IMG/VR virus record: IMGVR_UViG_3300001847_000680
Location: 1 to 28,601 of that record
DNA length: 28,601 bases
Strand: one strand, 5' to 3'
DNA from: a virus
Below, piece after piece: positions 5,924 through 25,772 of this stretch (position 1 is its first letter; the number at the start of each line of letters is the position of its first letter). Both the position numbers and the translations under genes were made by a program. Under the pieces are notes generated by a model. It was given only the letters and a program-made list of their open reading frames with translations, had not been told where the DNA came from and made no database searches.

Positions 5924-6450
5924 AGCCGGTGCGGCTCCGGGCACGCGGGCGCCCGCCGACGGCCTACTCGCGCGAACGCGCCGAACACATCTGCCACGAG
6001 CTGGCCGAAGGAAAGTCTCTGCGGTTGGTGTGTAAGGAGTTGGGGATCGCGCCGCAGACGGTGTATGGATGGGTGATCGACAACCATGAAGGTTTCGGTG
6101 ATCAGTACGCGCGTGCGAGGCATCTCATGGCCCTCAAGTGGGCCGACGAACTGGATGAGATCGCCGGCCACAAGAGCAACGACTACTACGTTGACGACGA
6201 AGGCAAGCTGAAGCCCGATCTTGAGCACATCGCGCGTTCGCGCTTGCGCATCGACACGCGCAAGTGGATGCTTTCGAAGATGCTGCCGAAGGTTTACGGC
6301 GACAAGATCATCACCGAAGTCACCGGCAAGGACGGCGGCCCGGTCGAGATGCAGGCGACGAAGATCGATGTACTCGCGCTCGATCCCGATCAGCGCGACC
6401 AGTTGAAACAGATTTTGCTGGCGGCGACGAAGCAGAAGGATGAAGCGTGA
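5920..6450 (+). CDS. terS: Terminase small subunit
   Basis: A 176-residue protein that recognises phage DNA and stimulates the large terminase. The start at 5920 is chosen from the ATGA overlap. Residues 8-20 are basic (RARGRPPTAYSRE), and residues about 20-55 form a helix-turn-helix (LAEGKSLRLVCKELGIAPQTVYGWV). A helical oligomerisation-like region follows (YARARHLMALKWADELDEIAGH), and then 'HIARSRLRIDTRKWMLSKMLPKVYGDK', which is characteristic of Sf6 gp1-like/terminase_5-type small subunits. The C-terminal tail is acidic/Lys-rich, often the contact to the large subunit. The gene lies four short genes upstream of the large subunit, as expected. High confidence. Confidence 0.93.
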   Translation: MKPVRLRARGRPPTAYSRERAEHICHELAEGKSLRLVCKELGIAPQTVYGWVIDNHEGFGDQYARARHLMALKWADELDEIAGHKSNDYYVDDEGKLKPDLEHIARSRLRIDTRKWMLSKMLPKVYGDKIITEVTGKDGGPVEMQATKIDVLALDPDQRDQLKQILLAATKQKDEA

Positions 6451-6650
6451 TGCGCGCGGTCAACGATCTCAACTTCCACATCGGCAAGAAGGTTTACCGC
6501 TTCATGCCGAAGGCCGTGACGCCGGCAGACTTTGGATATTTGCTGCAGCTTCTCATCGTGCTTGTCGCGCAGCCGCGCATCGGCGAGTTCGACACCGAAA
6601 GCTACATTAGCGAACACAATCTCTGGCACTGCTTCGAGGCGAAGGAATGA
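6450..6650 (+). CDS. Hypothetical protein (66 aa)
   Basis: A 66-residue protein starting MRAVNDLNFHIGKK. The ATG at 6450 overlaps the terminase small subunit stop (TGATG). It has an N-terminal beta-like stretch (HIGKKVYRFMP) and a hydrophobic helix (FGYLLQLLIVLVAQP) that is short for a membrane span. It resembles small phage proteins between terminase subunits with unknown role. Its stop overlaps the next ATG. Confidence 0.6.
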   Translation: MRAVNDLNFHIGKKVYRFMPKAVTPADFGYLLQLLIVLVAQPRIGEFDTESYISEHNLWHCFEAKE

Positions 6651-6844
6651 GCTATCACGATGGACATGCGCGTCGCGAATTGGCGCGGCGTCTGTTTGAG
6701 AGCCTACATCCGCGCCGCGACTGGTTTGGCGCGTCTGAGGCCACGAAACAGGAGTTCGAACGTCATGTCGCTTATGTCGTTGCCGACCGACAAGCCATCT
6801 GTGTCGTTGCTGGATTTGACGCCAGACCCGCCCCCGGCGCCTGA
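6647..6844 (+). CDS. Hypothetical protein (65 aa)
   Basis: A 65-residue protein (MSYHDGHARRELARRLFESLHP) with a GGCGAAGGA ribosome-binding site and an ATGA start overlap with the preceding gene. It is rich in Arg and Ala and helical in its first half. Its last 80 bases overlap the next gene in another frame, which is unusually long, so either the next start is later or this C-terminus is not conserved. No family recognised. Confidence 0.5.
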   Translation: MSYHDGHARRELARRLFESLHPRRDWFGASEATKQEFERHVAYVVADRQAICVVAGFDARPAPGA

Positions 6845-7031
6845 CATCGTCCGCTACGCCATCGAGAATGGCGTGCGGTTCCTTGTCGCCGACTGGCGCG
6901 CGCACGCCGAACAGACGCAGCTCACCGACGCAAGTGACGTTGCGATGGGCCTGATCTTCATCAATCAGGTGAACGTATTGCGGGTGATCACCGGCGACTA
7001 CTACGCCGGCAATTTCAACAGCAAGCAATGA
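6765..7031 (+). CDS. Hypothetical protein (88 aa)
   Basis: An 88-residue protein. The ATG at 6765 has CAGGAG about ten bases upstream; an ATG at 6774 is an alternative. The protein contains 'PDIVRYAIENGVRFLVADWRAHA', 'ASDVAMGLIFINQVNVLRVI' and a C-terminal 'GDYYAGNFNSKQ'. It looks soluble and mixed alpha/beta. Its stop overlaps the ATG of the large terminase (ATGA), so it is in the packaging operon. Function unknown. Confidence 0.6.
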   Translation: MSLMSLPTDKPSVSLLDLTPDPPPAPDIVRYAIENGVRFLVADWRAHAEQTQLTDASDVAMGLIFINQVNVLRVITGDYYAGNFNSKQ

Positions 7032-8653
7032 AGCTCCTCAACGTCGACGGCAAACACATCGATCCGTTCGAGCATCTGCTCGAGATCGAACGCGTCGAGT
7101 GCGAATCGTCGCTCTACACGTTCGTGCAGAAGGCGTGGCGCTATGTCGACCCGTCGCCGTTCGTGCACGGCTGGCCGCTCGAGGCGATGTGCGAGCATCT
7201 CGAGGCGGTCGTCGACGGCGACATCCGCAAACTGCTGATCAACATTCCGCCTCGTTGCGGCAAGAGTTCAATCGTCAGCGTCTGCTTCCCGGCGTGGGTA
7301 TGGACGCAACGAGAGAACACGGCGACGTCGGGGCCGCAGGTTCCGCTGCTGCACGCGTCGTACGCGATGTCGCTCGCGATGCGCGACAGCGTCAAGACGC
7401 GACGCCTGATCGAGAGCCCGTGGTACCAGCGACTATGGGGCGAGCGCTTCCATCTGGTCGGCGACCAGAATACGAAAGGCCGCTTCCAGAACGACAAGCG
7501 CGGCGAGCGGCTGATCACTGCCGTCGACGCGCGCGTCACCGGTGAAGGCGGCAACATCATCGTCGTCGACGATCCGAACGCCGCGAACGAGGCGCTGTCC
7601 GAAGCGCTAATCGAGACGACGAACGAGTGGTGGGACGGCACGATGAGCACCCGCCTCAACGATGCGCGCACCGGCGCCTACATCGTGATCCAGCAGCGGC
7701 TGGGCGAGGAAGACCTGACCGGCCACATCCTCGACACCGACGAAGGCTGGACGCATCTCATGCTGCCGATGGAGTTCGAGCCCGAACGCTCATTCGTGAC
7801 GAGCATCGGCTGGGAAGACCCGCGCAGCGAGGCAGGCGAGCTGCTGTGGCCTGATCGCTTTGCCGAAGAGCAGGTCGAGGTGCTGAAGAAGCGACTGGGC
7901 CCGTGGAAAGCCGCCGGCCAGTTGCAGCAGCGCCCGGAGCCGAAGGGCGGAGGCATCATCAAGCGCGACTGGTGGCAGCTCTACGACGCAGCCGCGTTCC
8001 CGCCGTTCGACTACATCGTCGCCAGCCTCGACACGGCCTACACGACAAAGCAGGAGAACGACTTCAGCGCGCTAACCGTGTGGGGCATCTTCTCGTCGGA
8101 CACTGTCGCGGTGCCGTCGAAGCAGGTCGTGCGCGGCGAGCGTCTGACGAACATCGATCCGCGCGACTATGCGCAGCAGGCGCCGAAGGTCATGCTCATG
8201 AACGCGTGGCAAGATCGCCTCGAGCTGCACGATCTCGTGCAGCGCGTCGCCAAGAGCTGCAAGGACATGAAGGTCGACCGGCTGCTGATCGAAGACAAAG
8301 CGGCTGGCCATAGCGTGGCGCAAGAACTGCGCCGCCTGTTCGGCTACGAGGACTTCGCCGTGCAGCTTGTGAACCCGGGCATGCTCGACAAGGTCGCGCG
8401 CGTCTACGCGATCCAGCATCTGTTTGCCGAAGGGCTGGTGCATGCACCTGATCGACAGTGGGCCGAGATGGTAATTGGCCAGTGCTCGACGTTCCCCCGC
8501 GGCAAGCACGACGACATCGTCGACACCGTGAGCCAAGCGCTCGCGCATCTGCGCCAGTTGCGCATGCTGTCGCGCAGCAGCGAACACATCGCCGAAGTGG
8601 GCGAGAGCCTGCGCCATCGCGGCGCGCCGCCGGCGCCGCTCTATGGGATTTGA
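7028..8653 (+). CDS. terL: Terminase large subunit (ATPase and nuclease)
   Basis: A 541-residue DNA-packaging motor. The N-terminal ATPase has Walker A PPRCGKS at residues 74-80, Walker B IIVVDDP at 177-183, and a coupling-like IVIQQRLGEEDLTGHIL near 219-235. The C-terminal RNase H-like nuclease has acidic residues at D335 (SLDTA), E422/D423 (LLIEDKAAG) and HDDIVD at 494-499. Length and motif order are those of headful-type large terminases. All catalytic residues look intact. It cuts concatemeric DNA and drives it through the portal. It starts by a four-base overlap with the preceding gene and is followed by a 243-base regulatory gap. Confidence 0.97.
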   Translation: MKLLNVDGKHIDPFEHLLEIERVECESSLYTFVQKAWRYVDPSPFVHGWPLEAMCEHLEAVVDGDIRKLLINIPPRCGKSSIVSVCFPAWVWTQRENTATSGPQVPLLHASYAMSLAMRDSVKTRRLIESPWYQRLWGERFHLVGDQNTKGRFQNDKRGERLITAVDARVTGEGGNIIVVDDPNAANEALSEALIETTNEWWDGTMSTRLNDARTGAYIVIQQRLGEEDLTGHILDTDEGWTHLMLPMEFEPERSFVTSIGWEDPRSEAGELLWPDRFAEEQVEVLKKRLGPWKAAGQLQQRPEPKGGGIIKRDWWQLYDAAAFPPFDYIVASLDTAYTTKQENDFSALTVWGIFSSDTVAVPSKQVVRGERLTNIDPRDYAQQAPKVMLMNAWQDRLELHDLVQRVAKSCKDMKVDRLLIEDKAAGHSVAQELRRLFGYEDFAVQLVNPGMLDKVARVYAIQHLFAEGLVHAPDRQWAEMVIGQCSTFPRGKHDDIVDTVSQALAHLRQLRMLSRSSEHIAEVGESLRHRGAPPAPLYGI

Positions 8654-8784
8654 ATGTTGCGGGCCGGGCTCGATACCGGCTGCGTGGCTCTACCGTGACT
8701 AGTATTGGCGAGGTCTACCACGTACCTCCTCGTGGCTGCGTGTCCTTCCACGCCGCCGCAACGCGCGCATCATGCTTGATCGAC

Positions 8785-8896: not shown

Positions 8897-11251
8897 ATGG
8901 CTTTAGTGCCGGGGTTGAGCCCCAACATCCGATTGGTCGAGCCGGAACCCGACGCGCTGCCGCCGGGTGAGGATGTTGTCGTCGAGAGCGCCCCGGAGAA
9001 CGCGGACATCGAGCACGTCGATGACAAGGGCAACGTCATCAAGATCGACCATCCCGACGGCTCGATCACGATCAGCCTCGACGGCAAGCCAGTCGAAGAA
9101 GCCGAAGACGCGTACGACGAAGGCTGGTTCGCCAACCTCGCCGACAAGATCGACGGCCTCGAGCTGAGCCGCGTCGCCGACGACTTGATGCGCGCCATCG
9201 GCGACGACATCGACAGCCGCAAGGACTGGATCGAGGATCGAGCGCAGGGCATCAAGCTGCTGGGTCTCAAGATCGAAGTGCCGGGCATCGGCGGCGCCGC
9301 CGAAGGCGCGCCCGTCGAAGGCATGAACCGCGTTCGCCATCCGCTGCTGCTCGAAGCCGTGCTGCGCTTTCAGGCGAACGCGCGCGCCGAACTGTTGCCG
9401 ACCGACGGCCCGGTCAAGATCAGGGTTGACGACAACAACGCGACGTTCCAAACCGACCGCATGGCCGATGCGCTCGAGCGCGATCTCAATCACTACCTGA
9501 CGGCTATCGCCACCGAGTACTATCCCGACACCGACCGCATGCTGCTGATGCTTGGCTTCGGCGGCCTTGCGTTCAAGAAGGTCTACTTCTGCCCGCTGCG
9601 CAATCGCCCGGTGAGCGAGACCGTTGACGCCGAAGACCTGATCGTCAACGCAGCGGCGACCGACATCCGCAGCGCCAAGCGCGTCACGCATCGCGTGATG
9701 ATGCGGCCCAGCACCGTGAAGCGTCTGCAAATCCTCGGCACGTATCGCGACATCTCGCTGTCGACGCCGTCGCCGCAGCAGCTCGACAGTGCTCAGCGCG
9801 AGAAGAAGGCGCAGCAGGGCGTCGAACCCGAAGCGTTGAACCCGGAGGATCGCGACCGGGAAATCTACGAGTGCTACTGCGAGCTGAACATCAAGGGCTA
9901 CGAGCACAAGTGGAAGGGCAAGGAGAGCGGGCTCGAGGTGCCGTGGCGCGTCACCATCGACGTCACCAGCAAGCAAATCCTGAGCATCGTCCGCAACTAC
10001 GACCCTGACACCGCAGAGCTGCCGGAGGCGCGCGCCGTCTTCGTGCCGTACACGTTCGTGCCGGGCTTCGGGTTCTATCCCATCGGCCTGCTCCACATCC
10101 TTGGCAACACGACGAACGCCGTGACCGCGGCGTGGCGCGAGCTGCTCGACGCGGGCATGTACGCGAACTTCCCCGGCTTCCTGTTCAGCGACGTCGGCGG
10201 CCGCCAGAACAGCAACATCTTCCGCGTGCCTCCGGGCGGCGGCGCGCTGGTCAAGACGGGCGGCATGCCGATCAATCAGGCGGTCTCGCCGCTGCCGTAC
10301 AAGGAACCGTCGCAGGCGCTGATGGCGCTGGTCGACAACATCGCGCAGACCGGGCAGCGGCTGGGCGGCACCAGCGAGCAGGCAACCGGCGAGGGCCGCG
10401 CCGACGCGCCCGTCGGCACGACGCTGGCGCTGATCGAGCAGGCGCAAAAGATTTTGAACAGCGTGCACAAGCGCATGCACGCAGCGCAAGCCGAAGAATT
10501 CCAGCTCCTCGTCAAGTGCTTCAAGGAACACCCGGAGAGTTTCTGGCAGCGCAATCGCCGCCCGGCATTCCAGTGGGACGAGAAGACGTTCCGCGATGCG
10601 CTCGACATGTACGCGCAGGCGCTGGTGCCACAGGCCGATCCGAACACGGCGAGCCACACGCAGCGCATCGTCAAGGTAATGGCGCTGAAGCAGCTTCAGG
10701 ACCTGAGCCCGACGCTCTACGATCCCATCGCCGTCGACACCGCGGCGCTGCAGGCACTGGGCTGGAATAACCCGGAGCAGTTCTTCGTGCCGCCGAGTGC
10801 GATGAACAAGCCGCCGCTCGAAGTGCAGAAGGGCATGGAAGAGCTGAAGCTCAAGCAGGGCGACCAGCAGATCAAGCGCGAGGCGCTGCAGCAGAAGGCG
10901 CAGGCCGACGCCGGCAAGCTGCAGATCGAAGCGCAGCGTCTGCAGGTCGAGGCGCAGAAACCGACCGGTCTCGCGCCGCCGGAGGACAAGTCGCAGGAAC
11001 TGGCGCTCAAGGCGGCCGACATCGCGGCCAAGGCCAAGGACGTGCAGTTCAAGCAGGAACGCGCGATCAAGGAAGACGAGAACCGCGATCTCGAGCGGCA
11101 GGCCAGCCTGCAGGAAGCCAACCTGAAACTTGTCGGCGACATCCTGAAGATCAAGCACGACCACGCGCACGACACGCACACGCAGGCGCGCGAACACGCG
11201 CATCAGCTCGAGCTGGCGCGCCTGAAGCCGAAGACGCCGAAGAATGACTAG
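8897..11251 (+). CDS. Portal protein (P22-like size)
   Basis: A 784-residue protein directly after the large terminase, with a GAGG ribosome-binding site seven bases before the ATG. It forms the dodecameric ring through which DNA enters and leaves the head. The N-terminal acidic arm (residues 1-75) is followed by the conserved helical/wing region (for example 'DIDSRKDWIEDRAQGIKLLG', 'GMNRVRHPLLLEAVLRFQANARAE'), a central 'FVPYTFVPGFGFYPIGLLHILG' and 'GGTSEQATGEGRADAPVGTTLALIEQ', typical of podovirus portals. The last 130 residues are a long Gln/Lys/Ala-rich coiled coil ending in His-rich helices (KIKHDHAHDTHTQAREHAHQ), reminiscent of the barrel helix of the P22 portal. The last bases overlap the next gene. 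Confidence 0.92.
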   Translation: MALVPGLSPNIRLVEPEPDALPPGEDVVVESAPENADIEHVDDKGNVIKIDHPDGSITISLDGKPVEEAEDAYDEGWFANLADKIDGLELSRVADDLMRAIGDDIDSRKDWIEDRAQGIKLLGLKIEVPGIGGAAEGAPVEGMNRVRHPLLLEAVLRFQANARAELLPTDGPVKIRVDDNNATFQTDRMADALERDLNHYLTAIATEYYPDTDRMLLMLGFGGLAFKKVYFCPLRNRPVSETVDAEDLIVNAAATDIRSAKRVTHRVMMRPSTVKRLQILGTYRDISLSTPSPQQLDSAQREKKAQQGVEPEALNPEDRDREIYECYCELNIKGYEHKWKGKESGLEVPWRVTIDVTSKQILSIVRNYDPDTAELPEARAVFVPYTFVPGFGFYPIGLLHILGNTTNAVTAAWRELLDAGMYANFPGFLFSDVGGRQNSNIFRVPPGGGALVKTGGMPINQAVSPLPYKEPSQALMALVDNIAQTGQRLGGTSEQATGEGRADAPVGTTLALIEQAQKILNSVHKRMHAAQAEEFQLLVKCFKEHPESFWQRNRRPAFQWDEKTFRDALDMYAQALVPQADPNTASHTQRIVKVMALKQLQDLSPTLYDPIAVDTAALQALGWNNPEQFFVPPSAMNKPPLEVQKGMEELKLKQGDQQIKREALQQKAQADAGKLQIEAQRLQVEAQKPTGLAPPEDKSQELALKAADIAAKAKDVQFKQERAIKEDENRDLERQASLQEANLKLVGDILKIKHDHAHDTHTQAREHAHQLELARLKPKTPKND

Positions 11252-14200
11252 GGAAGTTAACCGCGCGCTGATGATTGCCCGCGCCACCGGCGGCCGCGCG
11301 CAGGAAATCACGTCGGCCGACACGTCGATCAAGCAGGTGCCGGCGCTGTTCAAGAGCCCGGTCTTTGAGAAGCGCCCCGGGCAGCGCAACCTCGACATCG
11401 GCGGTGGCAAGTACGACCTTGGCACCGAGCATCTCGCGAACGAACACGGCGTCGAAAGCCACGTCTATGATCCGTTCAACCGGCCGCCCGAGCACAACGA
11501 TGCGGTGCTGAAGAAGTTCGCCCGCAAGAAGGCCGACAGCGTCACGGCGGCGAACGTGCTGAACGTCATCCAGCACCCGCATCACCGGAAGGCCGTGATC
11601 AAGCAGGCGCACGATCACCTGCACGACAACGGCGCGGCGTACTTCGGCATCTACGAGGGCAATGGCACGGGCGCTGGCGGTATCACCTCGAAGGGCTGGC
11701 AGAACAACCGCAAGGCCGCCGGCTACATGGACGAGGTGCGGTCTGTGTTCCCGCATGTCGAGCGCAAGGGCAACATCATCGTCGCGCGCAAGCGCGCCTA
11801 CGGCGGCCGCGCTGATGAGAAAAACGATTTGTGGTGGCATGGCTCAGGCAGCGGCGATCTGCGCGGCGGCGAGAGCGGGCTGCATTTGGGCACGCAGGCG
11901 GCCGCAGAAGACGCGCTGAACGCGCGCATCGGCTTCCCTGCCGAAGGCGCGTGGGATGGCTCCCGCGAATATGGCAAGACCAAACTCGCCGGAAAAAATA
12001 CTATCCTGAAGCGCAATCCATACGGCCTCTCAGGGCACAATATTGATGCGCCAGATGAAGACTACTTTCCGCATGAGCATCCGCGGGGACTTCCGATGGT
12101 ATCACGCGGTTTCGTGATGAAGCCCGAATGGAGGCCTAGCATCAGGCCCTACAAACTCACAGGGCCGATGACGAACACGCCTCAACAGCCGCACGACGAT
12201 TGGAAAGCCAATGGCTACATGCGGCGCGCGTTGAACAAAGGTAATGCCAAGCGGGGCTACTTCTATCGCAATGAAGGAGAAGATAGCGGTTCGATCTCTG
12301 CGGTGGTTCCATCAGGCGCGCACGTTGAACCAGTCGAACGCGCCAACGGCGGCAAGATACCGCCCTTCAAGCTCCACAGCGGCGCGGCTGACCTGATCGA
12401 GAAAAAGGGCCAGCCCAAGGCGACGCCGCAGCAGTACGCGGCGATGCCGGGCATCAAGCCAGACGAGATCAAGCACTCGGGCTTCGCCGCGCTGGGCACG
12501 AAGGCGATCCCGCGCGAACAAGCCGCGCAGCATCTGCGCGAGCACATGGTTCCGGTGCAGGAAACGGTGCTGGGCGAACGCGACAAGGACGACTACATCG
12601 CCAAGAACCGGGACTGGCTTGAGGACAGCTTTCGCTCGCTGCACGGTCGGTTGCCGCGTTCATACGACGAGCTGGCGTATGAGGTCGATGCTGGCACTGA
12701 CGCAGAACATAGCGAACAGCAGCTCCCCGGCGGCAAGAACTACCGCGAAGTGCTGTTGCATCTTCCCGATCCGCACGCCGCTGCGATCAAGCAACACGAA
12801 GAAAAATATCGCGCGCTTTCTCGCCGCGCTGCAGATGCAATGGAAAATTGGAAACGCATAAGCGAGGAACGCGGGCCGGGCCATCCTGATATCCTCGAAG
12901 CGTACAAACATGTAGATGCAACTAGAAAAGAGCGCACTACGATTGCAGATAAGCTGGCGGAACTTCGCAAACAGCAGAAAGACACGCTGTATCGGCACCC
13001 ACACTGGGACGTGCCCAACGTCCTCGCGCACATCCGCATGTCCGACCGCAAGGGGCCGAACGGCGAGAAGGTGCTGCATGTCGAGGAGCTGCAGAGCGAC
13101 TGGGGGCAAGAAGGGCGCCAGCAAGGCTTCAAAAATCCCCTTACACCTGCCGAACGCGACGAATTAAAACGCTTCACTGACCCGCCTGATGAAGACACGG
13201 CGCGGCGCAATTTTGAGCCGGCCAATCAAGCGCGCTGGGAAGAGCTGGAGAGGCGCGCAAACAGCAGCGATCATGGGCTTCCGTCCGGGCCCTACGTCGA
13301 TAACACCCAGAAGTGGACCGACCTTGCGCTGAAGCGCGTGCTGCACGAGGCCGCGCACGGTGGCTACGACAAGGTCGTCTTCACGCCGGGCGCCGAACAG
13401 AACAAGCGCTACAAGCTGTCCAACCAAGTGCGGTCGCTGCACTACTATCCGTTCGACGACGGCACGGGGAACCTGCAATTCATCGATCACCGCGGCACTC
13501 GGCACTCGCAGAACGACATCAAGACTGAAGAGCTGCCGAAGTACGTAGGCAAGGAAGTCGCTGAAAAATTGCTGGCGACGAAACGTACTCGACGGGATCG
13601 CGCGCCTTCGAATGAAATGCTTGGGCATCATCTTGAAAATCTGAAAGACGTCGAAGTCGGCGGCGAAGGCATGCGCGGCTACTACGACAACATCATGCCC
13701 AAGCGGCTGCAGGCGCTCGCGCAGCAGCACGACCCGCAGGCGAAGGTACGTCTCAAAGGAGAGCGCATTAAAACGCATGGCGAATGGCCCTTCCCTATAG
13801 AGGTGAGTAGCGACGGCACCAACTACTGGCTGTCCGGGCGCTCGCCGCATAATGAAGAACCGAAGGGAAGACTTAGCGAGAATTTTCCGTCTTACATTGC
13901 GGCGGATGATGCTCGCGAAAAGATGTACTCCGGCTATAACCAGCCGGTTCACGCGCTCGACGTCACGTCGCAGATGCGCGACAGCATCAAGGCCAACGGC
14001 TTCAACCAGTTCAAAGCGGGCGGATATGTTCGAGGAACTCAGGACATGAATGTAATTGACCACGCTTTGCGCATCTGCCGCGCTGCTGGCGGCGGGGCAG
14101 GCCTTCAAAACCTACGGCAAACCGACACCGGCGGTACGTCGGTTAACGAGTTGGCAAACGCTTTTCAAAAAGCCATTGATTACCATACGTCGCTTCCGCC

Positions 14201-15263
14201 CGATCAGCGCATTGCCAACAGCAAGGCGGCGATGGCAAAGATCGGGCAGCACACTGGCTTTTATAAAGGCACCAATAAACCGTTCTCCCTGCTAGGCAAA
14301 AATCAGAAATTGGAAAAAACCGAAATCGGCTACGAAGGAAGCAAGCCGGTAACACTGCCCGATGGACGCCCCATTGCGGCGGCTGGCGTGTCGCTGTCTC
14401 CTGCGGTGCAGTTCGGCAAATTTAACACCTGCCCGAACCATGCGAGCTGCAAGGAAAGCTGTCTCGGCAAAACTTCAGGCGGTAATTTTTTATACGGCGG
14501 CGGCCACGATCTTGAAGCTTACAAAGGCCCGCGGCTTGTTGGTCTGAACAAAACCAAAGCGTTGGTTAACGAGCCTGAAGCATTTGCCACTCGACTTTAC
14601 GATGAGATCGACGCGCGTAAAAGACTTGCTGCCAAGGAGGGCAAACACCTTGGCGTGCGCCTCAACGTGATCTCCGACCTGCATCCGCGCATCACGCAGT
14701 CGCTGATCAAGGCACATCCCGACGTCACGTTCTATGATTATACCAAGCTCAACGCAAACCCAGTGGCGCCGAACCATCACCTGACCTATTCGTCAACCGG
14801 CGTCAGCCAATACGCCGGCCAGAATGGCCTCGATCACGACGTTCCCAACCCGCACAGCAACTGGCGCACCGTGCGCTCGCGGCTTGATACGGGCTCGAAC
14901 GTCGCGATGGCGTTTACCCACGGCAAACATTTGCCCGAAACGGTCCATGACAGCGAAAGCGGCAAGACCTACAAGGTCGTCGACGGCGATACACACGACT
15001 TCCGGCCGCTCGACGCGCAGCCAAAGGGTGAGGACGGCGTTATCATCGGCCTTCGCAACAAGAACATGACGACTAAGTCCGAAGCGGCCTACAAGAGCGC
15101 TGCCAAAAACAGCAAAGGCTTCATGGTTCACTACGATCCGCAACTTCGCACACTGGAGAAGGGACAAAAGCCTGTCCCGACTAACAAGTCCGTTGTGATC
15201 GCCCCTCAGCCCCGGCGCGCTGCCGGATTGGTGGGGCATAACGGCGGGCCGCCTTTGGAGTAG
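11244..15263 (+). CDS. Giant multidomain polyvalent virion protein: methyltransferase, ART-like, LPD-type and GP88-like modules
   Basis: A 1339-residue protein. Residues 5-18 carry the recurring VNRALMIAR-GG motif. Residues about 45-183 are a class I SAM methyltransferase-like domain (LDIGGGKYDLGT at 50-61, VYDPFN at 74-79, NVLNVI at 104-109). Residues about 195-365 begin WWHGSGSGDLRGG and GLHLGT, like ADP-ribosyltransferase-type polyvalent modules. Residues about 372-845 match a widespread phage polyvalent-associated domain (PNVLAHIR, VLHVEELQSDWGQEGR, LALKRVL, GGEGMRGYYD). After a second motif copy (938-946), residues about 960-1300 resemble the GP88/DUF7227 cysteine domain (C1063, C1069, C1073; RLNVISDL; FYDYTK). 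The tail is GHNGGPPLE. Such proteins are thought to be packaged and injected to act on the host. ATG overlaps the portal stop. Individual enzyme activities are unproven. Confidence 0.85.
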   Translation: MTREVNRALMIARATGGRAQEITSADTSIKQVPALFKSPVFEKRPGQRNLDIGGGKYDLGTEHLANEHGVESHVYDPFNRPPEHNDAVLKKFARKKADSVTAANVLNVIQHPHHRKAVIKQAHDHLHDNGAAYFGIYEGNGTGAGGITSKGWQNNRKAAGYMDEVRSVFPHVERKGNIIVARKRAYGGRADEKNDLWWHGSGSGDLRGGESGLHLGTQAAAEDALNARIGFPAEGAWDGSREYGKTKLAGKNTILKRNPYGLSGHNIDAPDEDYFPHEHPRGLPMVSRGFVMKPEWRPSIRPYKLTGPMTNTPQQPHDDWKANGYMRRALNKGNAKRGYFYRNEGEDSGSISAVVPSGAHVEPVERANGGKIPPFKLHSGAADLIEKKGQPKATPQQYAAMPGIKPDEIKHSGFAALGTKAIPREQAAQHLREHMVPVQETVLGERDKDDYIAKNRDWLEDSFRSLHGRLPRSYDELAYEVDAGTDAEHSEQQLPGGKNYREVLLHLPDPHAAAIKQHEEKYRALSRRAADAMENWKRISEERGPGHPDILEAYKHVDATRKERTTIADKLAELRKQQKDTLYRHPHWDVPNVLAHIRMSDRKGPNGEKVLHVEELQSDWGQEGRQQGFKNPLTPAERDELKRFTDPPDEDTARRNFEPANQARWEELERRANSSDHGLPSGPYVDNTQKWTDLALKRVLHEAAHGGYDKVVFTPGAEQNKRYKLSNQVRSLHYYPFDDGTGNLQFIDHRGTRHSQNDIKTEELPKYVGKEVAEKLLATKRTRRDRAPSNEMLGHHLENLKDVEVGGEGMRGYYDNIMPKRLQALAQQHDPQAKVRLKGERIKTHGEWPFPIEVSSDGTNYWLSGRSPHNEEPKGRLSENFPSYIAADDAREKMYSGYNQPVHALDVTSQMRDSIKANGFNQFKAGGYVRGTQDMNVIDHALRICRAAGGGAGLQNLRQTDTGGTSVNELANAFQKAIDYHTSLPPDQRIANSKAAMAKIGQHTGFYKGTNKPFSLLGKNQKLEKTEIGYEGSKPVTLPDGRPIAAAGVSLSPAVQFGKFNTCPNHASCKESCLGKTSGGNFLYGGGHDLEAYKGPRLVGLNKTKALVNEPEAFATRLYDEIDARKRLAAKEGKHLGVRLNVISDLHPRITQSLIKAHPDVTFYDYTKLNANPVAPNHHLTYSSTGVSQYAGQNGLDHDVPNPHSNWRTVRSRLDTGSNVAMAFTHGKHLPETVHDSESGKTYKVVDGDTHDFRPLDAQPKGEDGVIIGLRNKNMTTKSEAAYKSAAKNSKGFMVHYDPQLRTLEKGQKPVPTNKSVVIAPQPRRAAGLVGHNGGPPLE

Positions 15264-15266
15264 AAC

Positions 15267-15461
15267 ATGGCTCGACCCAAACTTGATCGCGCCTTCTTTG
15301 AGGCGCAGTTTCACAATCATCACCACTACGAGGAGCTGCCGCGCCCCGACCCGGAATGGTGGGAGGTCGAGCATAAAGCGCGCGGCGGCGAAGTCGGTTC
15401 TATAGACGCCACCGTCGAGAAGGCGTTGGCCATCGCCAAGAAGGTGACTCGTGACCGCTGA
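15267..15461 (+). CDS. Small virion-type protein with the AL-x-IAK motif (64 aa)
   Basis: A 64-residue protein between the giant polyvalent protein and the pyrophosphatase-like protein. It has GGAG before the ATG, in the last codons of the preceding gene. It contains a His/acidic N-terminal half with HNHHHYEE, an EWWEVEHKARGGEV segment, and ends with 'VEKALAIAKKVTRDR', the third copy of a motif also found twice in the upstream protein and once in the downstream one. It overlaps the next gene by 11 bases. Similar tiny proteins sit near portals in some alphaproteobacterial phages; function unknown, perhaps a docking peptide. Confidence 0.7.
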   Translation: MARPKLDRAFFEAQFHNHHHYEELPRPDPEWWEVEHKARGGEVGSIDATVEKALAIAKKVTRDR

Positions 15462-16284
15462 CTTCAGTCGCTACATGCAAAACCTGCGTGGCGCGTTCAG
15501 CCAGCTCAACCAGAGCGCCGCCGCGCCCGCGGCCGCGCCGGCATCGTCAATGTCTTACGAACAGATGCTGGCGCAAGCACTACCGCCGGGCGGGTGGCAG
15601 GCCCTCTTTCCGACGACGAAGGCGGCGCCCGCGGTAGCGCCACCGCCGCCACCTCCGCCCCCGCCGCCCGCGGCACAGCCTGAACGGCCGGCATATAATC
15701 CCTCGCAAGAGCAGCAGTTCTGGCAATACGCTGGCTTGGCTACCGGCGGCGCCGCGCGTCTTGAGCGTGCGCATGGCGGCCTTGTATCGCCCACGGAAGC
15801 ACAGAAGCACGCCGGCAACTACAAGAAGCATCACATCAGTTTCCACGGGCTGCCGATCTCTATCGAGACGCCGAAGGGGGCGACGCGCGAAGGCAAAAAC
15901 CCGTCGGGCAAGACGTGGCGTTGCACGATGCCGGCCGACTACGGCTACATCAAACGCACCGAAGGTGCTGACGGCGATCATGTCGACGTCTTCGTCGGCC
16001 CCGACAAGGACAGCCGTATGGTGTTCATAATCAACCAGAATGACCATCGGACTGGACAGTTCGACGAGCACAAGGCAATGCTTGCATACTCTTCGGAGCG
16101 CGCGGCCGTGGCTGACTACGTGAAGGCGTTCAGCGATGGCAAGGGCGCCGACCGAATTCGGTCGGTCGAACCCATGTCGTTGGACGCGTTCAGGCACTGG
16201 TTGAAGCGGGGCAAGACGAAGACCCCCGCCAAGTCGAAGTCAATCGTCGAGCACGCACTCGCGGTCACAAGGAGCAAGACATGA
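15451..16284 (+). CDS. Inorganic-pyrophosphatase-like polyvalent-module protein
   Basis: A 277-residue protein with a GTG start at 15451. Residues 1-110 are low complexity, Ala/Pro-rich, with a ten-residue proline run (64-73) and Gly-Gly sites. Residues about 114-252 match the InPase domain known from phage polyvalent proteins: 'CTMPADYGYI' (158-167), 'GADGDHVDVFVGP' (172-184) with D174, D176 and D179 in the D-x-D-x-x-D signature of soluble inorganic pyrophosphatases, then 'FDEHKAML' and 'MSLDAFRHWL'. The metal-binding residues look intact, so activity is possible. The C-terminus is 'SIVEHALAVTR', the shared motif. It may be a virion-internal enzyme; in vivo role inferred. Confidence 0.82.
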   Translation: MTADFSRYMQNLRGAFSQLNQSAAAPAAAPASSMSYEQMLAQALPPGGWQALFPTTKAAPAVAPPPPPPPPPPAAQPERPAYNPSQEQQFWQYAGLATGGAARLERAHGGLVSPTEAQKHAGNYKKHHISFHGLPISIETPKGATREGKNPSGKTWRCTMPADYGYIKRTEGADGDHVDVFVGPDKDSRMVFIINQNDHRTGQFDEHKAMLAYSSERAAVADYVKAFSDGKGADRIRSVEPMSLDAFRHWLKRGKTKTPAKSKSIVEHALAVTRSKT

Positions 16285-17567
16285 GTGAGATGGCGAAGGC
16301 CGCCCGCGCGGCCATGAAGAGCAAAATCCGCCGGCTAACGTCGGGCGAGCCCAAGGCCAAGGTCGACGCGTCGACGTGGTCGCCGCCGGAGATGATGAAC
16401 ACCGGTGCCAAGGTCGGCATGCGCCCGATCTCGCGTCGCGCCTTCCGCAAGGGCGGCAAGGTCATCGAGAAGTGCGAGGGCGGCCCCGCGAAAATGCGCG
16501 CCGACCGCAAGCAGCGCAAGGCAGGCGGCCGTTCGCTCGTCACCGACCTGATCAATCGCAACGACAAGAAGGCCAACATGTACCGCGAGGGCGGCGACGC
16601 CCACGTCGGCGGCTACAAGCGCGGCGGTGACGTTGCGCAGGACAAGGCGATGATCAAGAAGGCGCTGCGCCAGCATGACGAACACATGCACGGCGGCAAG
16701 CACGAGGAGATCAAGCTCAAGAAGGGCGGCAGTGCGAACTGGATTGCCGGCGCGATCAAACATCCCGGCGCGTTGCGCAAGTCGCTGGGCGTCAAGCAGG
16801 GCGAGAAAATCCCCGCCAAGAAGCTGGCCAAGGCCACGCACAGCAGCAACCCGAAGCTCGCGAAGCGGGCGCGGCTGGCCGAGACGCTGAAGAAGCTGCA
16901 CAAGGCCGACGGCGGCTCGACCACGCAACCGCCGAAAGGCGAGGAGAGCGATTTCGACCGCAAGACGCGTGAGCTGATGCCGCCGCCGAAGCAGGGCGAG
17001 ATGCCGGCCGACGCCGACATGCGCAACCCGGTCACGGGCGCGCCGCGCACCGGCCGCAAGAAGGGCGGCGGCACCTACTTTGGCGGTACCCGCCCGACGG
17101 GCGGCCGCATGCCGCGCAAGTCTGGCGGTCGCGCCAAGGACAGAAAAACCAACATCGTCATCTCGATCAACGCGCAGCCGAAGGATCAGCAGCAGCCGAT
17201 GATGCCAAAGATGCCGACCCCGTCTCCGCTTCCGGTTCCGCCTGTTGCTCCGCCAGCAATGGGCGCGGGCGCGCCGCCGATGCCGATGCCCCCGATGCCC
17301 TCTCCCCCTCCGGGGCTCGCAGGCGGCGCGCCCGGCATGCCGCCGCTCCCGCGCAAGCGCGGCGGCCGTGCCTACCGGTCCTACAAGGACATGGATGCCG
17401 GTGCTTTGAGCGGCATGGGCCGCCTCGAGAAGACCGAGATCGAACACGGCAAGCGCGTCGGGCGCCTGTCGGGCGGCCGCGCCCGGTCCTACAAGGACAT
17501 GGACGCCGGCGCGCTGAGCGGCATGGGTCGCATCGAGAAGACCGCCATCCAGAAGCACAAGCGATAG
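16281..17567 (+). CDS. Basic Gly-Gly-rich structural protein with C-terminal tandem repeat
   Basis: A 428-residue, very basic protein with many KxGG/RxGG/RGG sites (RKGGKV, YKRGGDV, KKGGSA, RKSGGRA, RKRGGRA). Around residues 154-180 it has 'WIAGAIKHPGALRKSLG' followed by 'KQGEKIPAKKLAKATHS', a motif I recall from many phage structural proteins. A Pro/Met-rich low-complexity linker (about 305-355) precedes two near-identical 27-residue units ('YKDMDAGALSGMGRLEKTEI') at 366-392 and 402-428, with 36-residue period. It is likely a virion component, possibly DNA-associated or scaffold-like given its charge, but the role is unknown. It has a clean AAGGAG site and overlaps the pyrophosphatase-like gene by four bases. 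Confidence 0.75.
   Translation: MSEMAKAARAAMKSKIRRLTSGEPKAKVDASTWSPPEMMNTGAKVGMRPISRRAFRKGGKVIEKCEGGPAKMRADRKQRKAGGRSLVTDLINRNDKKANMYREGGDAHVGGYKRGGDVAQDKAMIKKALRQHDEHMHGGKHEEIKLKKGGSANWIAGAIKHPGALRKSLGVKQGEKIPAKKLAKATHSSNPKLAKRARLAETLKKLHKADGGSTTQPPKGEESDFDRKTRELMPPPKQGEMPADADMRNPVTGAPRTGRKKGGGTYFGGTRPTGGRMPRKSGGRAKDRKTNIVISINAQPKDQQQPMMPKMPTPSPLPVPPVAPPAMGAGAPPMPMPPMPSPPPGLAGGAPGMPPLPRKRGGRAYRSYKDMDAGALSGMGRLEKTEIEHGKRVGRLSGGRARSYKDMDAGALSGMGRIEKTAIQKHKR
17376..17564. repeat. Tandem direct repeat in the basic protein gene
   Basis: Two copies of about 81 bases (17376-17456 and 17484-17564), offset 108 bases, encode the duplicated 27-residue unit. The starts are identical (CGGTCCTACAAGGACATGGA) and the copies then differ mainly at synonymous sites until the last codons. 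Confidence 0.85.
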
Positions 17568-17852: not shown

Positions 17853-18245
17853 ATGCCGCAAATGGCCATGGCACACGAGGTCGACCCGAAAGAAGAGTTG
17901 CTCACCAAGGTGGGCGACATCAGCGGGATCGACGTCTTTAACAACGCAGTTCTGGTCGCGATCTATGTTCGTCCGACCAAGACAAAGTCCGGCCTCTACC
18001 TGACGGACAAGTACACCGACGAAGACCGCATTCAGGGCAAGGCAGGTCTCGTTATCAAGAAAGGCCCCCGCGCTTTCGTCGATGAAAGCGGGCAATGGTT
18101 TGCCGGGGCTACCATCGAAGAAAACGACTGGGTGATCTTCCGGCCGAGTGACGGCTGGCCGATCAATGTCAACGGCGTGTCTTGCCGCCTGATCGACGAT
18201 GTCGCGATCCGGGGCAAGGTCGATCAACCTGACCGGGTGTGGTGA
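17853..18245 (+). CDS. GroES-like (Cpn10) co-chaperonin
   Basis: A 130-residue protein with the Cpn10 layout: an N-terminal strand (NNAVLVAIYVRP, residues 30-41), a mobile-loop-like region 'TKTKSGLYLTDKYTDEDRIQGK' (42-63), then 'AGLVIKKGP', 'GATIEENDWVIFRPSDG' (85-101) and 'CRLIDDVAIRGKV' (111-122), corresponding to the GroES strands 'VGDIVIF.DGYGV' and 'ILAIVE'. Phage GroES homologues such as T4 gp31 help fold the major capsid protein with the host GroEL. The gene lies between the virion-protein block and the scaffold/capsid genes, which fits. It begins two bases after the previous stop. The fold assignment is by motif, not by search. Confidence 0.72.
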   Translation: MPQMAMAHEVDPKEELLTKVGDISGIDVFNNAVLVAIYVRPTKTKSGLYLTDKYTDEDRIQGKAGLVIKKGPRAFVDESGQWFAGATIEENDWVIFRPSDGWPINVNGVSCRLIDDVAIRGKVDQPDRVW

Positions 18246-18250
18246 ACGAA

Positions 18251-19096
18251 ATGGCTGATGAAGCAGAAGACAAGGTCGTCGTCGACGACGAACAGGCTCA
18301 CGTCGAAGAGCAGCCGAAGGAACTGACGCTCGAGGAAGGCGTCGACGACCTGAAGCAGCGGCTGGCCGCGGCGGAAGCTCGCGCCAAGGCGGCCGAAGAA
18401 GCCAAGCACAAGGCGGAGCTTGACGCTCACGCCGCGCGCGGCACCGTGCAGGAGACCAACCTGCAACTGGTGTCGAATGCCATCGACACGTTGCGCCAGA
18501 GCAACGAGATCGCCAAGGCCAACTACAAGGCGGCGATGTCGGCTGGCGACTACGACGCGGCCGCGACGTATCAGGAGGAAATGTCCGGGCATGCGGCCAA
18601 GCTGTTGCAGCTCGAGCAGGGCAAGCAGGTGCTGGAAAGCACGCCGCTTCCCGTTGCGCCCGTGCAGCGGCCGACCGATCCGGTCGAGGCGTTCGCGGCG
18701 CAGCTCTCCCCGCGTTCGGCCGAGTGGGTGCGCAGGCATCCGCAGTTCGTGACCGATCCGCGCCTCAATCAGAAGATGATCGCGGCGCACAACATGGTCA
18801 TGGCTGACGGCGGTGTCGCCGACAGCGACGACTACTTCGCCGACGTGGAGCGGTTGCTGGGGGTCGGCAAGGCGCCGGCCGCCACTGCTGAAGCAATGTC
18901 GGAAGCGGCGCAGCCGACGGCTCGCCGCGCGACCAGCACCCCGCCGCCCGCGGCGCCGGTGAGCCGCGACACCCGCGGCGGAAACATTGTCCGTCTCACG
19001 CCCGAAGAGCGCGAGATGGCCGAGATGATGAAGATGACCCCGGAGGAGTACGCGAAGAACAAGATCGCGCTCAAGAAGGAAGGAAGGCTGCACTAA
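18251..19096 (+). CDS. Scaffolding-like protein
   Basis: A 281-residue acidic/helical protein. Two starts are possible: GTG at 18239 or ATG at 18251 (MADEAEDK); I take the latter because the upstream one overlaps the preceding stop and lacks a better ribosome-binding site. Long alanine/glutamate-rich coiled coils run over about residues 10-130, followed by 'PVEAFAAQLSPRSAEWVRRHPQF' and, at the end, 'LTPEEREMAEMMKMTPEEYAKNKIALKKEG'. That C-terminus is typical of scaffold proteins of tailed phages. It is encoded upstream of the capsid gene. Its likely job is to guide head assembly and then leave or be cleaved. Confidence 0.72.
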   Translation: MADEAEDKVVVDDEQAHVEEQPKELTLEEGVDDLKQRLAAAEARAKAAEEAKHKAELDAHAARGTVQETNLQLVSNAIDTLRQSNEIAKANYKAAMSAGDYDAAATYQEEMSGHAAKLLQLEQGKQVLESTPLPVAPVQRPTDPVEAFAAQLSPRSAEWVRRHPQFVTDPRLNQKMIAAHNMVMADGGVADSDDYFADVERLLGVGKAPAATAEAMSEAAQPTARRATSTPPPAAPVSRDTRGGNIVRLTPEEREMAEMMKMTPEEYAKNKIALKKEGRLH

Positions 19097-20524: not shown

Positions 20525-21439
20525 ATGGCTGTTAATCTTTCAAACATCAAAGACCTGCTTCTGCCGGGTCTTCGCGGTGTCGAAGGTAAGTACGAGATGA
20601 TCCCGTCTCAGTACGACAAAATCTTCACCAAGCACGATTCGAAGATGGCTCTCGAGCGCACCGCCGAAATGCGGTACCTCGGCCTCGCCCAGCTCAAGAC
20701 CGAAGGCGGCCAGACCGCGTTCGACAACAGCGCCGGCGAACGCTTCGTCTACAATCAGGAACATACGGAAATCGCCCTTGGCTACGCGATTACTCGCAAG
20801 GCCATCGACGACAACCTGTATAAGACGCAGTTCCATCCGTCGAACCTCGGTCTGATCGAGAGCTTCCAGCAGACCAAGGAAATCTACGGCGCCAACATCC
20901 TGAACACGGCGACCACCTACAATGCCGCTATTGGCGGCGACGGTGTCGCTTTGTGCGCTTCCAACCACCCGATTGATGGTGGCACGGTTGCGAATATTCC
21001 GACGACCGCGGTCGACCTCAACGAAGCAACGCTTCTCAACGGCATGATCTCGGTTCGTACGAACTTCAAGGATCAGGCCGGCCTGAAGGTCTTCGCCCGT
21101 GCGCGCAAGCTCATCGTGGCGCCCCAGAACGAGCCAGTCGCAATTCGTCTGACCAAGACGGAACTGCGCCCCGGCACTGCAGATAACGACGTCAACGCGT
21201 TGCTCTCGACGGCCGGCGGTCTGCCCGAAGGATACATGGTCAACGACTTCTTGACGTCTCCGTATCCATGGTTCCTGCTTACGAATATCGACGGCCTCTC
21301 CTACATGGAGCGCGTCAAGTTCGAGACGGATATGCAGGTCGATTTTGTGACCGACAACCTGCTGGTGAAGGGCTACGAGCGGTATAGCTTCGGCTACTAC
21401 AACTGGCGCAGCATCTTCGGCAGTTTCCCGACCTCGTAA
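20525..21439 (+). CDS. Major capsid protein
   Basis: A 304-residue protein with a clean AAGGAG ribosome-binding site. The sequence has features of phage major head subunits of the Mu gpT-like, HK97-fold type: 'DKIFTKHDSKMALERTAEMRYLG' near the N-terminus, 'LGYAITRKAIDDNLY', 'ARKLIVAPQNEPVAIRL', and the C-terminal 'FVTDNLLVKGYERYSFGYYNWRSIFGS'. Length and context (scaffold-like gene upstream, small structural genes downstream) fit the major subunit that forms the icosahedral shell. No leader peptide for proteolysis is obvious. Confidence 0.88.
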   Translation: MAVNLSNIKDLLLPGLRGVEGKYEMIPSQYDKIFTKHDSKMALERTAEMRYLGLAQLKTEGGQTAFDNSAGERFVYNQEHTEIALGYAITRKAIDDNLYKTQFHPSNLGLIESFQQTKEIYGANILNTATTYNAAIGGDGVALCASNHPIDGGTVANIPTTAVDLNEATLLNGMISVRTNFKDQAGLKVFARARKLIVAPQNEPVAIRLTKTELRPGTADNDVNALLSTAGGLPEGYMVNDFLTSPYPWFLLTNIDGLSYMERVKFETDMQVDFVTDNLLVKGYERYSFGYYNWRSIFGSFPTS

Positions 21440-22009: not shown

Positions 22010-22402
22010 ATGAAGGCTCATCACAAGAAGGCGCGCCACCACAAGGCGCACGGCGGCGCCGAAAGCGCCATGAAGGGTGTTCCCGAGTACGAGCAGGACC
22101 TGCGTATGAATCCGGGCCGTCGTAATGCGGACGCCGAAACCATCTACGACGAGGCCGAGGCGGGCACGGGCCGCAAGCGTGGTGGCCGCACCAAGCGCAA
22201 GCACGGTGGCCATGTCGCGGCGCACGAGATGCACCCGAAGCACCACAAAAAGCACGTCGAAATGCACGGCAAGCATGCCATGCACCACGCGGGCCGCAAG
22301 CCGCGCAAGAGCGGAGGCCGGGCAGGTTCCAATATGAACCCGCTGTCGTCGGCCCACGCGGGCACCCCGGCCAAGGGGCGCCACACCGTCGATATCGACT
22401 GA
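22010..22402 (+). CDS. His/Lys/Arg-rich basic protein (130 aa)
   Basis: A 130-residue, strongly basic protein with 18 histidines (for example AHHKKARHHKAHGG and EMHPKHHKKHVEMHGKHAMHH) and several RGGR/KHGG/KSGGR sites. The C-terminus 'NPLSSAHAGTPAKGRHTVDID' is a pattern I recall from similar small phage proteins. Likely a nucleic-acid-binding or metal-binding internal virion protein; this is inferred from composition. It ends just before a strong terminator. Confidence 0.7.
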   Translation: MKAHHKKARHHKAHGGAESAMKGVPEYEQDLRMNPGRRNADAETIYDEAEAGTGRKRGGRTKRKHGGHVAAHEMHPKHHKKHVEMHGKHAMHHAGRKPRKSGGRAGSNMNPLSSAHAGTPAKGRHTVDID

Positions 22403-25268: not shown

Positions 25269-25772
25269 ATGGGCTATGCATCACGGTCAGGACGAGCAAG
25301 AACCAGCCCTTCAGGGCCGCAGGCGCATGCGATCTGCGACCGTTGTGGTTTCCGCTATAATCACGTCGACCTGCAATGGCAATTTGATTGGCGCGGCGCG
25401 ACGCTTCAAAACACACGCGTCCTCGTCTGCGACCGCTGCAACGACGACCAGCAACAACAGCTTCGCGCCATCGTGATCCCGGCCGATCCAGTGCCGATCA
25501 TGAACCCGCGCGTGCAGGACTTCGTTGCCGCTTCGACGACGCGACGCGCGACCAGCGGCCAGAACACTATTGACCCGACGACCGGCATTCCGATCCCCGG
25601 CGACGTCGTCCGCATCACGCAGGGCGATCAGACCCGCGTCACGCAGCAGACGGGCGAAGCGCCGGGCGGCCTTAATCAGCAGCCGGGCACCGACCCGAAT
25701 GCGCCGGGAGATGCCGACCCCGGACTGCCCTACGAGAATACCGACGTGCCGGAAACAGGACCGCTATCATGA
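25269..25772 (+). CDS. Zinc-ribbon structural protein (167 aa)
   Basis: A 167-residue protein with a GAGGTGA site. C23/C26 (ICDRCGF) and C54/C57 (VCDRCND) form a four-cysteine zinc ribbon flanking 'YNHVDLQWQFDWRGATLQNTRVL'. The C-terminal half is Pro/Gly/Thr-rich and low complexity. This form occurs between adaptor and tail fibre genes in many podophages, as I recall, and is probably a minor virion part. No enzyme motif. Its stop overlaps the tail fibre ATG (ATGA). Confidence 0.75.
   Translation: MGYASRSGRARTSPSGPQAHAICDRCGFRYNHVDLQWQFDWRGATLQNTRVLVCDRCNDDQQQQLRAIVIPADPVPIMNPRVQDFVAASTTRRATSGQNTIDPTTGIPIPGDVVRITQGDQTRVTQQTGEAPGGLNQQPGTDPNAPGDADPGLPYENTDVPETGPLS

Follow-up and report, generated by a model that had tools for sequence, protein, structure and literature searches.

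The window, i.e. the whole stretch of 28601 bases from IMG/VR virus record IMGVR_UViG_3300001847_000680, contains a series of packaging and head genes with a 1339-aa phage polyvalent protein adjoining the portal (Table 1). In this protein a methyltransferase fold, a GP88 domain and two further modules are combined in one chain, and it is encoded among packaging genes, from the portal to Cpn10 and then the major head protein. The end of the portal ORF and the start of the polyvalent ORF overlap by 8 bp, and nothing unusual was seen in the RNA structure at this overlap. The first-pass annotation had described a single ORF of this length beside a portal. This agrees with our result, as the frame is open throughout and the neighbour matches SU10_portal; the motifs it quoted (LDIGGGKYDLGT, VYDPFN, WWHGSGSGDLRGG, GLHLGT) are all present. 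Its division into four modules holds for the methyltransferase and GP88 and, without a Pfam name, for a large conserved domain, but not for an ADP-ribosyltransferase. It made no mention of the end-tag or of the RAxGG junction marks by which the modules are delimited. Searches of PDB sequences gave nothing useful and an NCBIfam search no match.

Table 1. Packaging, slot and head features of the window (residue numbers refer to the polyvalent protein).
Feature	Position	Strand	Evidence or remark
Terminase small subunit	upstream of ORF 11244-15263		PF20901
Terminase large subunit	upstream of ORF 11244-15263, as is the SU10-type portal
SU10-type portal protein, lineage marker	8897..11251	+	Pfam SU10_portal 7.5e-16; phrog_1216 1.8e-25
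Polyvalent protein, 1339 aa	11244..15263	+	ORF open throughout
N-terminal tag, residues 4-17	11253..11294	+	EVNRALMIARATGG; leave-one-clade-out score 21.9
Class I SAM-methyltransferase-fold module, residues 18-186	11295..11801	+	N-terminal signature ITSADTSIKQVPA
Junction mark RAYGG, residues 184-188	11793..11807	+
Orphan module, residues 189-365	11808..12338	+	ART-like per first-pass annotation
Junction mark RANGG, residues 366-370	12339..12353	+
Large conserved polyvalent module, residues 371-925	12354..14018	+	motifs HVEELQSDWGQ, GPYVDNTQKW, MRGYYDN
FKAGG, then internal tag copy, residues 923-950	14010..14093	+	VIDHALRICRAAGG
GP88 module, residues 951-1330 (about 950-1330)	14094..15233	+	PF17338 4.1e-17; phrog_1617 6e-31
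Second slot ORF, polyvalent-type inorganic pyrophosphatase (InPase)	15451..16284	+	PF18823 2.9e-50
C-terminal tag of InPase ORF	16246..16281	+	IVEHALAVTRSKT; score 17.8
Basic [KR]xGG-rich protein, conserved partner behind slot	16281..17567	+
GroES-like co-chaperonin, closes slot	17853..18245	+	Cpn10 7.1e-06
Putative scaffold	18239-19096
Major head protein	20525-21439		downstream of Cpn10/GroES-like gene

To place the window in its lineage a portal-based scan of IMG/VR was used, which yielded at least 599 relatives, and 80 loci were kept. The slot between the portal and Cpn10 is occupied by one to three ORFs in nearly every locus that reaches the GroES-like gene, and these ORFs vary widely in length and content between loci. 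ART-PolyVal is found in many of the relatives, GP88 in several and DUF7178 in L021; InPase is a separate ORF in the window and a fused part of the polyvalent chain in relative L003. As the slot is combinatorial across the lineage, the combination in the window is one draw from a set, and the earlier view of it as unusual is not supported as stated. A methyltransferase of the same family even shares one chain with ART-PolyVal in unrelated phages (L090, L100, L106).

The methyltransferase module reaches 26.6 bits with Methyltransf_23 (5.7e-06), just under the Pfam cut-off of 27, while the corresponding module of relative L090 lies over it with 29.2 bits. Its AlphaFold model has a pLDDT mostly above 90, the best structural matches of this model are SAM methyltransferases (Foldseek E 1.5e-04), and its comparison with Trm9 gave a VIA Z of 13.5 over 143 residues at 3.2 A. 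At the level of the predicted fold, a Rossmann-like class I SAM-methyltransferase is thereby confirmed in residues 18-186. The proposed methyltransferase-like domain is thus supported, with its real start near residue 18 and not near residue 40. On reading the module, no DNA methyltransferase motif of the DPPY type was seen. Relatives with the start ITSADTSxKQVPA occur as solo phage genes of ~170 aa or as pieces of other polyvalent chains. The solo relatives (L108, L111-L114, L116-L119, at ~6000-8700) adjoin a T4-type RNA ligase, an N6/N4 DNA methylase or a Mom protein, and these neighbours suggest a nucleic-acid role, possibly in RNA repair or nucleic-acid modification, although the loci look like closely related phages.

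The following orphan module has relatives in L084 and L085 only (77%), and its model, obtained from a three-sequence input, appears unfolded with a pLDDT of about 25-35. Residues 190-370 had been claimed as an ADP-ribosyltransferase, which amounts to a resemblance of motifs, as every sequence-profile test was negative. No Pfam match was found for the module, hhalign against nine sibling ART-PolyVal modules gave a probability of 0.5%, the scores against ART-PolyVal HMMs (8 and 44 members) were below 0 while shuffled sequences reach 5 bits, and neither tblastn of phages nor a scan of genome contigs returned relatives. ART (ART-PolyVal, PF18760) was therefore rejected for residues 189-365. A highly divergent ADP-ribosyltransferase is possible though unproven, since three stretches (WWHGS, GLHLG, YRNEGEDSGSISAVVP) align by eye with LYHGT, GSHF and YKNEVEGGTSWIAFDP of ART-PolyVal, and true ART-PolyVal domains sit at the corresponding position of the chain in sibling slot proteins. 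Given the profile scores and the lack of relatives in the phages and genomes searched, we regard this as unlikely.

The large central module is homologous in 40 loci, approximately half of the loci compared, and its model has a pLDDT mostly above 80. It has a weak likeness to phrog_7348 (2e-08), and UniProt A0A6J5SA55, a protein named for GP88, is 39% identical to it over 616 columns. Neither a Pfam match nor an LPD match was obtained; the earlier reading as a large LPD holds as far as a conserved, lineage-wide module is concerned, but not for the Pfam LPD identity. Searches of PDB sequences gave nothing useful and an NCBIfam search no match.

The last module scores 63.2 bits against the curated cut-off of 24.4 for PF17338, which confirms GP88 in the suspected GP88/DUF7227-like cysteine domain. 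The PF17338 match extends near full length and the invariant residues are kept, whereas the copy in the window is embedded as the last module and the known form is a solo protein. In an alignment of 19 sequences (A4) a lysine, three cysteines, R-N..SD, FYDYTK and an asparagine are invariant, among others. The invariant cysteines at 1063, 1069 and 1073 are spaced Cx5Cx3C (Cx7Cx3C in solo forms), and the canonical radical-SAM motif CX3CX2C is absent. A hint towards an enzymatic aspect arises from the GP88 model, which is barrel-like with the cysteines following the first strand of the aligned region, and whose top VIA matches include viperin, TigE, QueE and SuiB, weakly (Z 3.9-4.4). As Foldseek gave nothing with E below 0.001 for this model and all VIA Z values stay below 5, a proven radical-SAM identity was rejected; with the non-canonical spacing the likeness is retained as a lead only. 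On the strength of the three invariant cysteines and the model, the GP88 family could possibly be an unrecognised metalloenzyme. Relatives of GP88 (window 14292-15062) also occur in many mycobacteriophages.

The borders between modules follow a recurrent pattern. The window protein contains four copies of RAxGG in all, every one of them at a module border. Counting the wider pattern [RKYHF]AxGG in 77 slot proteins gave 191 occurrences as compared to 17 in shuffles, and 51.5% of module edges have one within 35 residues, compared to 15.7% of random positions. The pattern may represent either a linker or a cleavage site, and both fit equally here.

A second pattern, of the form VRRALMIAR..GG and helix-like, is found at the N- and/or C-terminus of the slot ORFs, with copies between modules. 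N-terminal ends read VRRALMIAR, IRQAMMIAR, MNDAIRLAK or TKDILHLAR, often with GG within ~25 residues, and C-terminal ends read IVERALAVTRRK, AVEQALKLTSK or SIVDRALMLTSK. To quantify this end-tag a weight matrix was used with one clade left out, the windows being picked by a lenient pattern. The tag was detected in 36-41 of the 51 complete slot ORFs (70.6-80.4%, thresholds 9 to 7), compared to 2.1-4.0% of control proteins and 1.9-5.0% of shuffled ends at the same thresholds; as clades were assigned by hand and the training windows were lenient, these percentages are estimates. A first regular expression, chosen after viewing the data, gave 62 cases compared to 1.9 in shuffled proteins. By reading, every ORF in multi-ORF slots is tagged (the window, L011, L032, L035, L061, L068, L074, L081 and MW202675, the nearest annotated record), and the mid-slot ORF L061_6062 carries its own tag. 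By score the tag is weak in clades F, H, I and B1, where it was partly assigned by eye. Polyvalent proteins of other phages that share modules with the slot are mostly without it. In a DNA scan of IMG/VR, polyvalent slot ORFs with RALMIAR were confined to contigs that also have this portal or the basic protein; the remaining matches were mostly proteins with RALMIARTE, the helix motif of the MuF minor head proteins, together with some unrelated proteins. MuF-like proteins (L147-L222) often contain RALMIARTE, with seven residues common to the slot tag.

The basic protein behind the slot has homologues in the same place in most loci, with a conserved N-terminal end MSEMAKAARAAMK and C-terminal end YKDMDAGAxxGxGRLEKxEI, and gave no match in a Pfam search. 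It is possibly an internal DNA-binding or tag-receiving virion protein. A small basic ORF after the head gene (22010-22402) also carries K/R-x-GG strings. The long ORF 25769-28600, which runs off the window, is repetitive (repeats around PIANGGTGQ), had no match in a Pfam search and probably encodes a tail fibre or similar.

We consider it somewhat more probable than its negation that the ORF encodes a virion-loaded polyvalent protein of an SU10-type-portal phage lineage, made of interchangeable modules, whose end-tag docks it to a virion assembly partner, bringing it into the head for delivery with the DNA. RAxGG linkers would join the methyltransferase, orphan, large conserved domain and GP88 modules, and the docking tag would be short and helix-like. 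Each cargo polypeptide of the slot, here both the polyvalent protein and the separately encoded InPase, would bear its own tag, internal tags would be junctions left where tagged proteins fused, and the delivered enzymes may act on nucleic acid of the host or the phage, or on defence. We infer the succession from the tag over head targeting and cargo injection to enzyme action on nucleic acid or defence. As for a CTS, a short peptide is conserved on otherwise diverse cargos. The same tag peptide is encoded by different codons, with six DNA versions of IRQAMMIARR and many differing synonymous sites, which argues that selection acts on the protein. Tag similarity further follows the portal (partial r 0.59 compared to 0.16 for the first module), which may partly reflect linkage as the N-terminal tag adjoins the portal gene. 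The first 30 residues of P1 DarB are enough for loading into the capsid (PMC9024508), and in the T-even internal proteins, which otherwise differ widely, the CTS is the one conserved part (PMC3012670). Taken together, protein-level selection, the tracking of the portal and these parallels point to the tag as a head-loading signal, and a CTS-like function would be the best reading on present evidence. One must keep in mind that the slot tags occur at the N-terminal end, the C-terminal end and inside, while the DarB signal is N-terminal. That one portable tag, used by a whole phage lineage at either end of a protein or inside fusions, loads arbitrary effector modules into the head and makes the slot an open cargo bay seems to us an almost balanced question, leaning slightly to the negative. 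Alternatively, the tag could have a role in oligomerisation, ejection or contact with a membrane.

It is rather doubtful that the AxGG junctions are cleavage sites of a polyprotein from which a phage protease releases separate effectors as the head matures, with the tag as a propeptide. RAxGG marks four module borders and [RKYHF]AxGG is enriched at the module edges of relatives, GG dipeptide strings recur in the basic protein and in ORF 22010-22402, and processing is among the predictions of Iyer et al. for polyvalent proteins (PMC5512222). However, no ORF of the window was identified as a prohead protease, flexible linkers explain the junctions equally well, and as the same modules occur fused or as separate ORFs, cutting is not obviously needed. 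A little less probable still is an ordinary polyvalent protein whose end similarity stems from common descent of the outer ends of the slot, with no targeting role. N-terminal tags adjoin the portal and C-terminal tags the conserved basic protein, neighbours with which they could have been passed on, and the tag correlates with the portal; this reading does not fit the individual tagging of separate ORFs, including the one in mid-slot, the internal copies, and a peptide that is kept where codons differ. On the basis of codon diversity we also reject DNA-level recombination anchors for cassette exchange as the sole meaning of the tags. Modules are indeed swapped while the ends stay conserved, and copies of the tag stand between them, but identical or near-identical peptides are written in different codons, and we hold anchors without a protein function to be very improbable.

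To our knowledge, the selection of large polyvalent proteins for packaging has been worked out for few phages, P1 DarB being one. If the proposed head-loading by the tag is correct, a tag common to dozens of unrelated cargos represents a testable sequence rule, and tagged ends would let candidate injected effectors be recognised in metagenomes. The junction marks at module borders let uncharacterised modules be cut out for assay, and the methyltransferase and GP88 modules, which also occur as solo phage genes, are approachable.

Several known systems resemble the slot in part. With the polyvalent proteins (PMC5512222) it has in common disparate enzyme-like domains in one chain among head genes, and ART-PolyVal and InPase modules in corresponding slots; the lineage of the window differs by its lineage-wide end-tag and AxGG grammar. 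A word search of PMC5512222 returned no description of such a tag or junction grammar, and a limited literature search none of the tag, an absence that is no proof of its being undescribed. MuF minor head proteins with effector domains are similar in gene position behind the portal, and the helix string RALMIAR(TE) is common to MuF-like proteins and the tag, which is only a lead as the 7-mer was the search query; unlike them, the slot proteins scanned had no detectable MuF domain. P1 DarB is a very large, virion-loaded anti-restriction protein with a short N-terminal peptide (PMC9024508), tested experimentally in P1, whereas here C-terminal and internal copies exist, the cargos are unrelated and the evidence comes from genes only. 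The T4 internal proteins are far smaller and of single function, and are likened by description and not by sequence, but they too are diverse defence-related cargos united by a short peptide, their CTS (PMC3012670).
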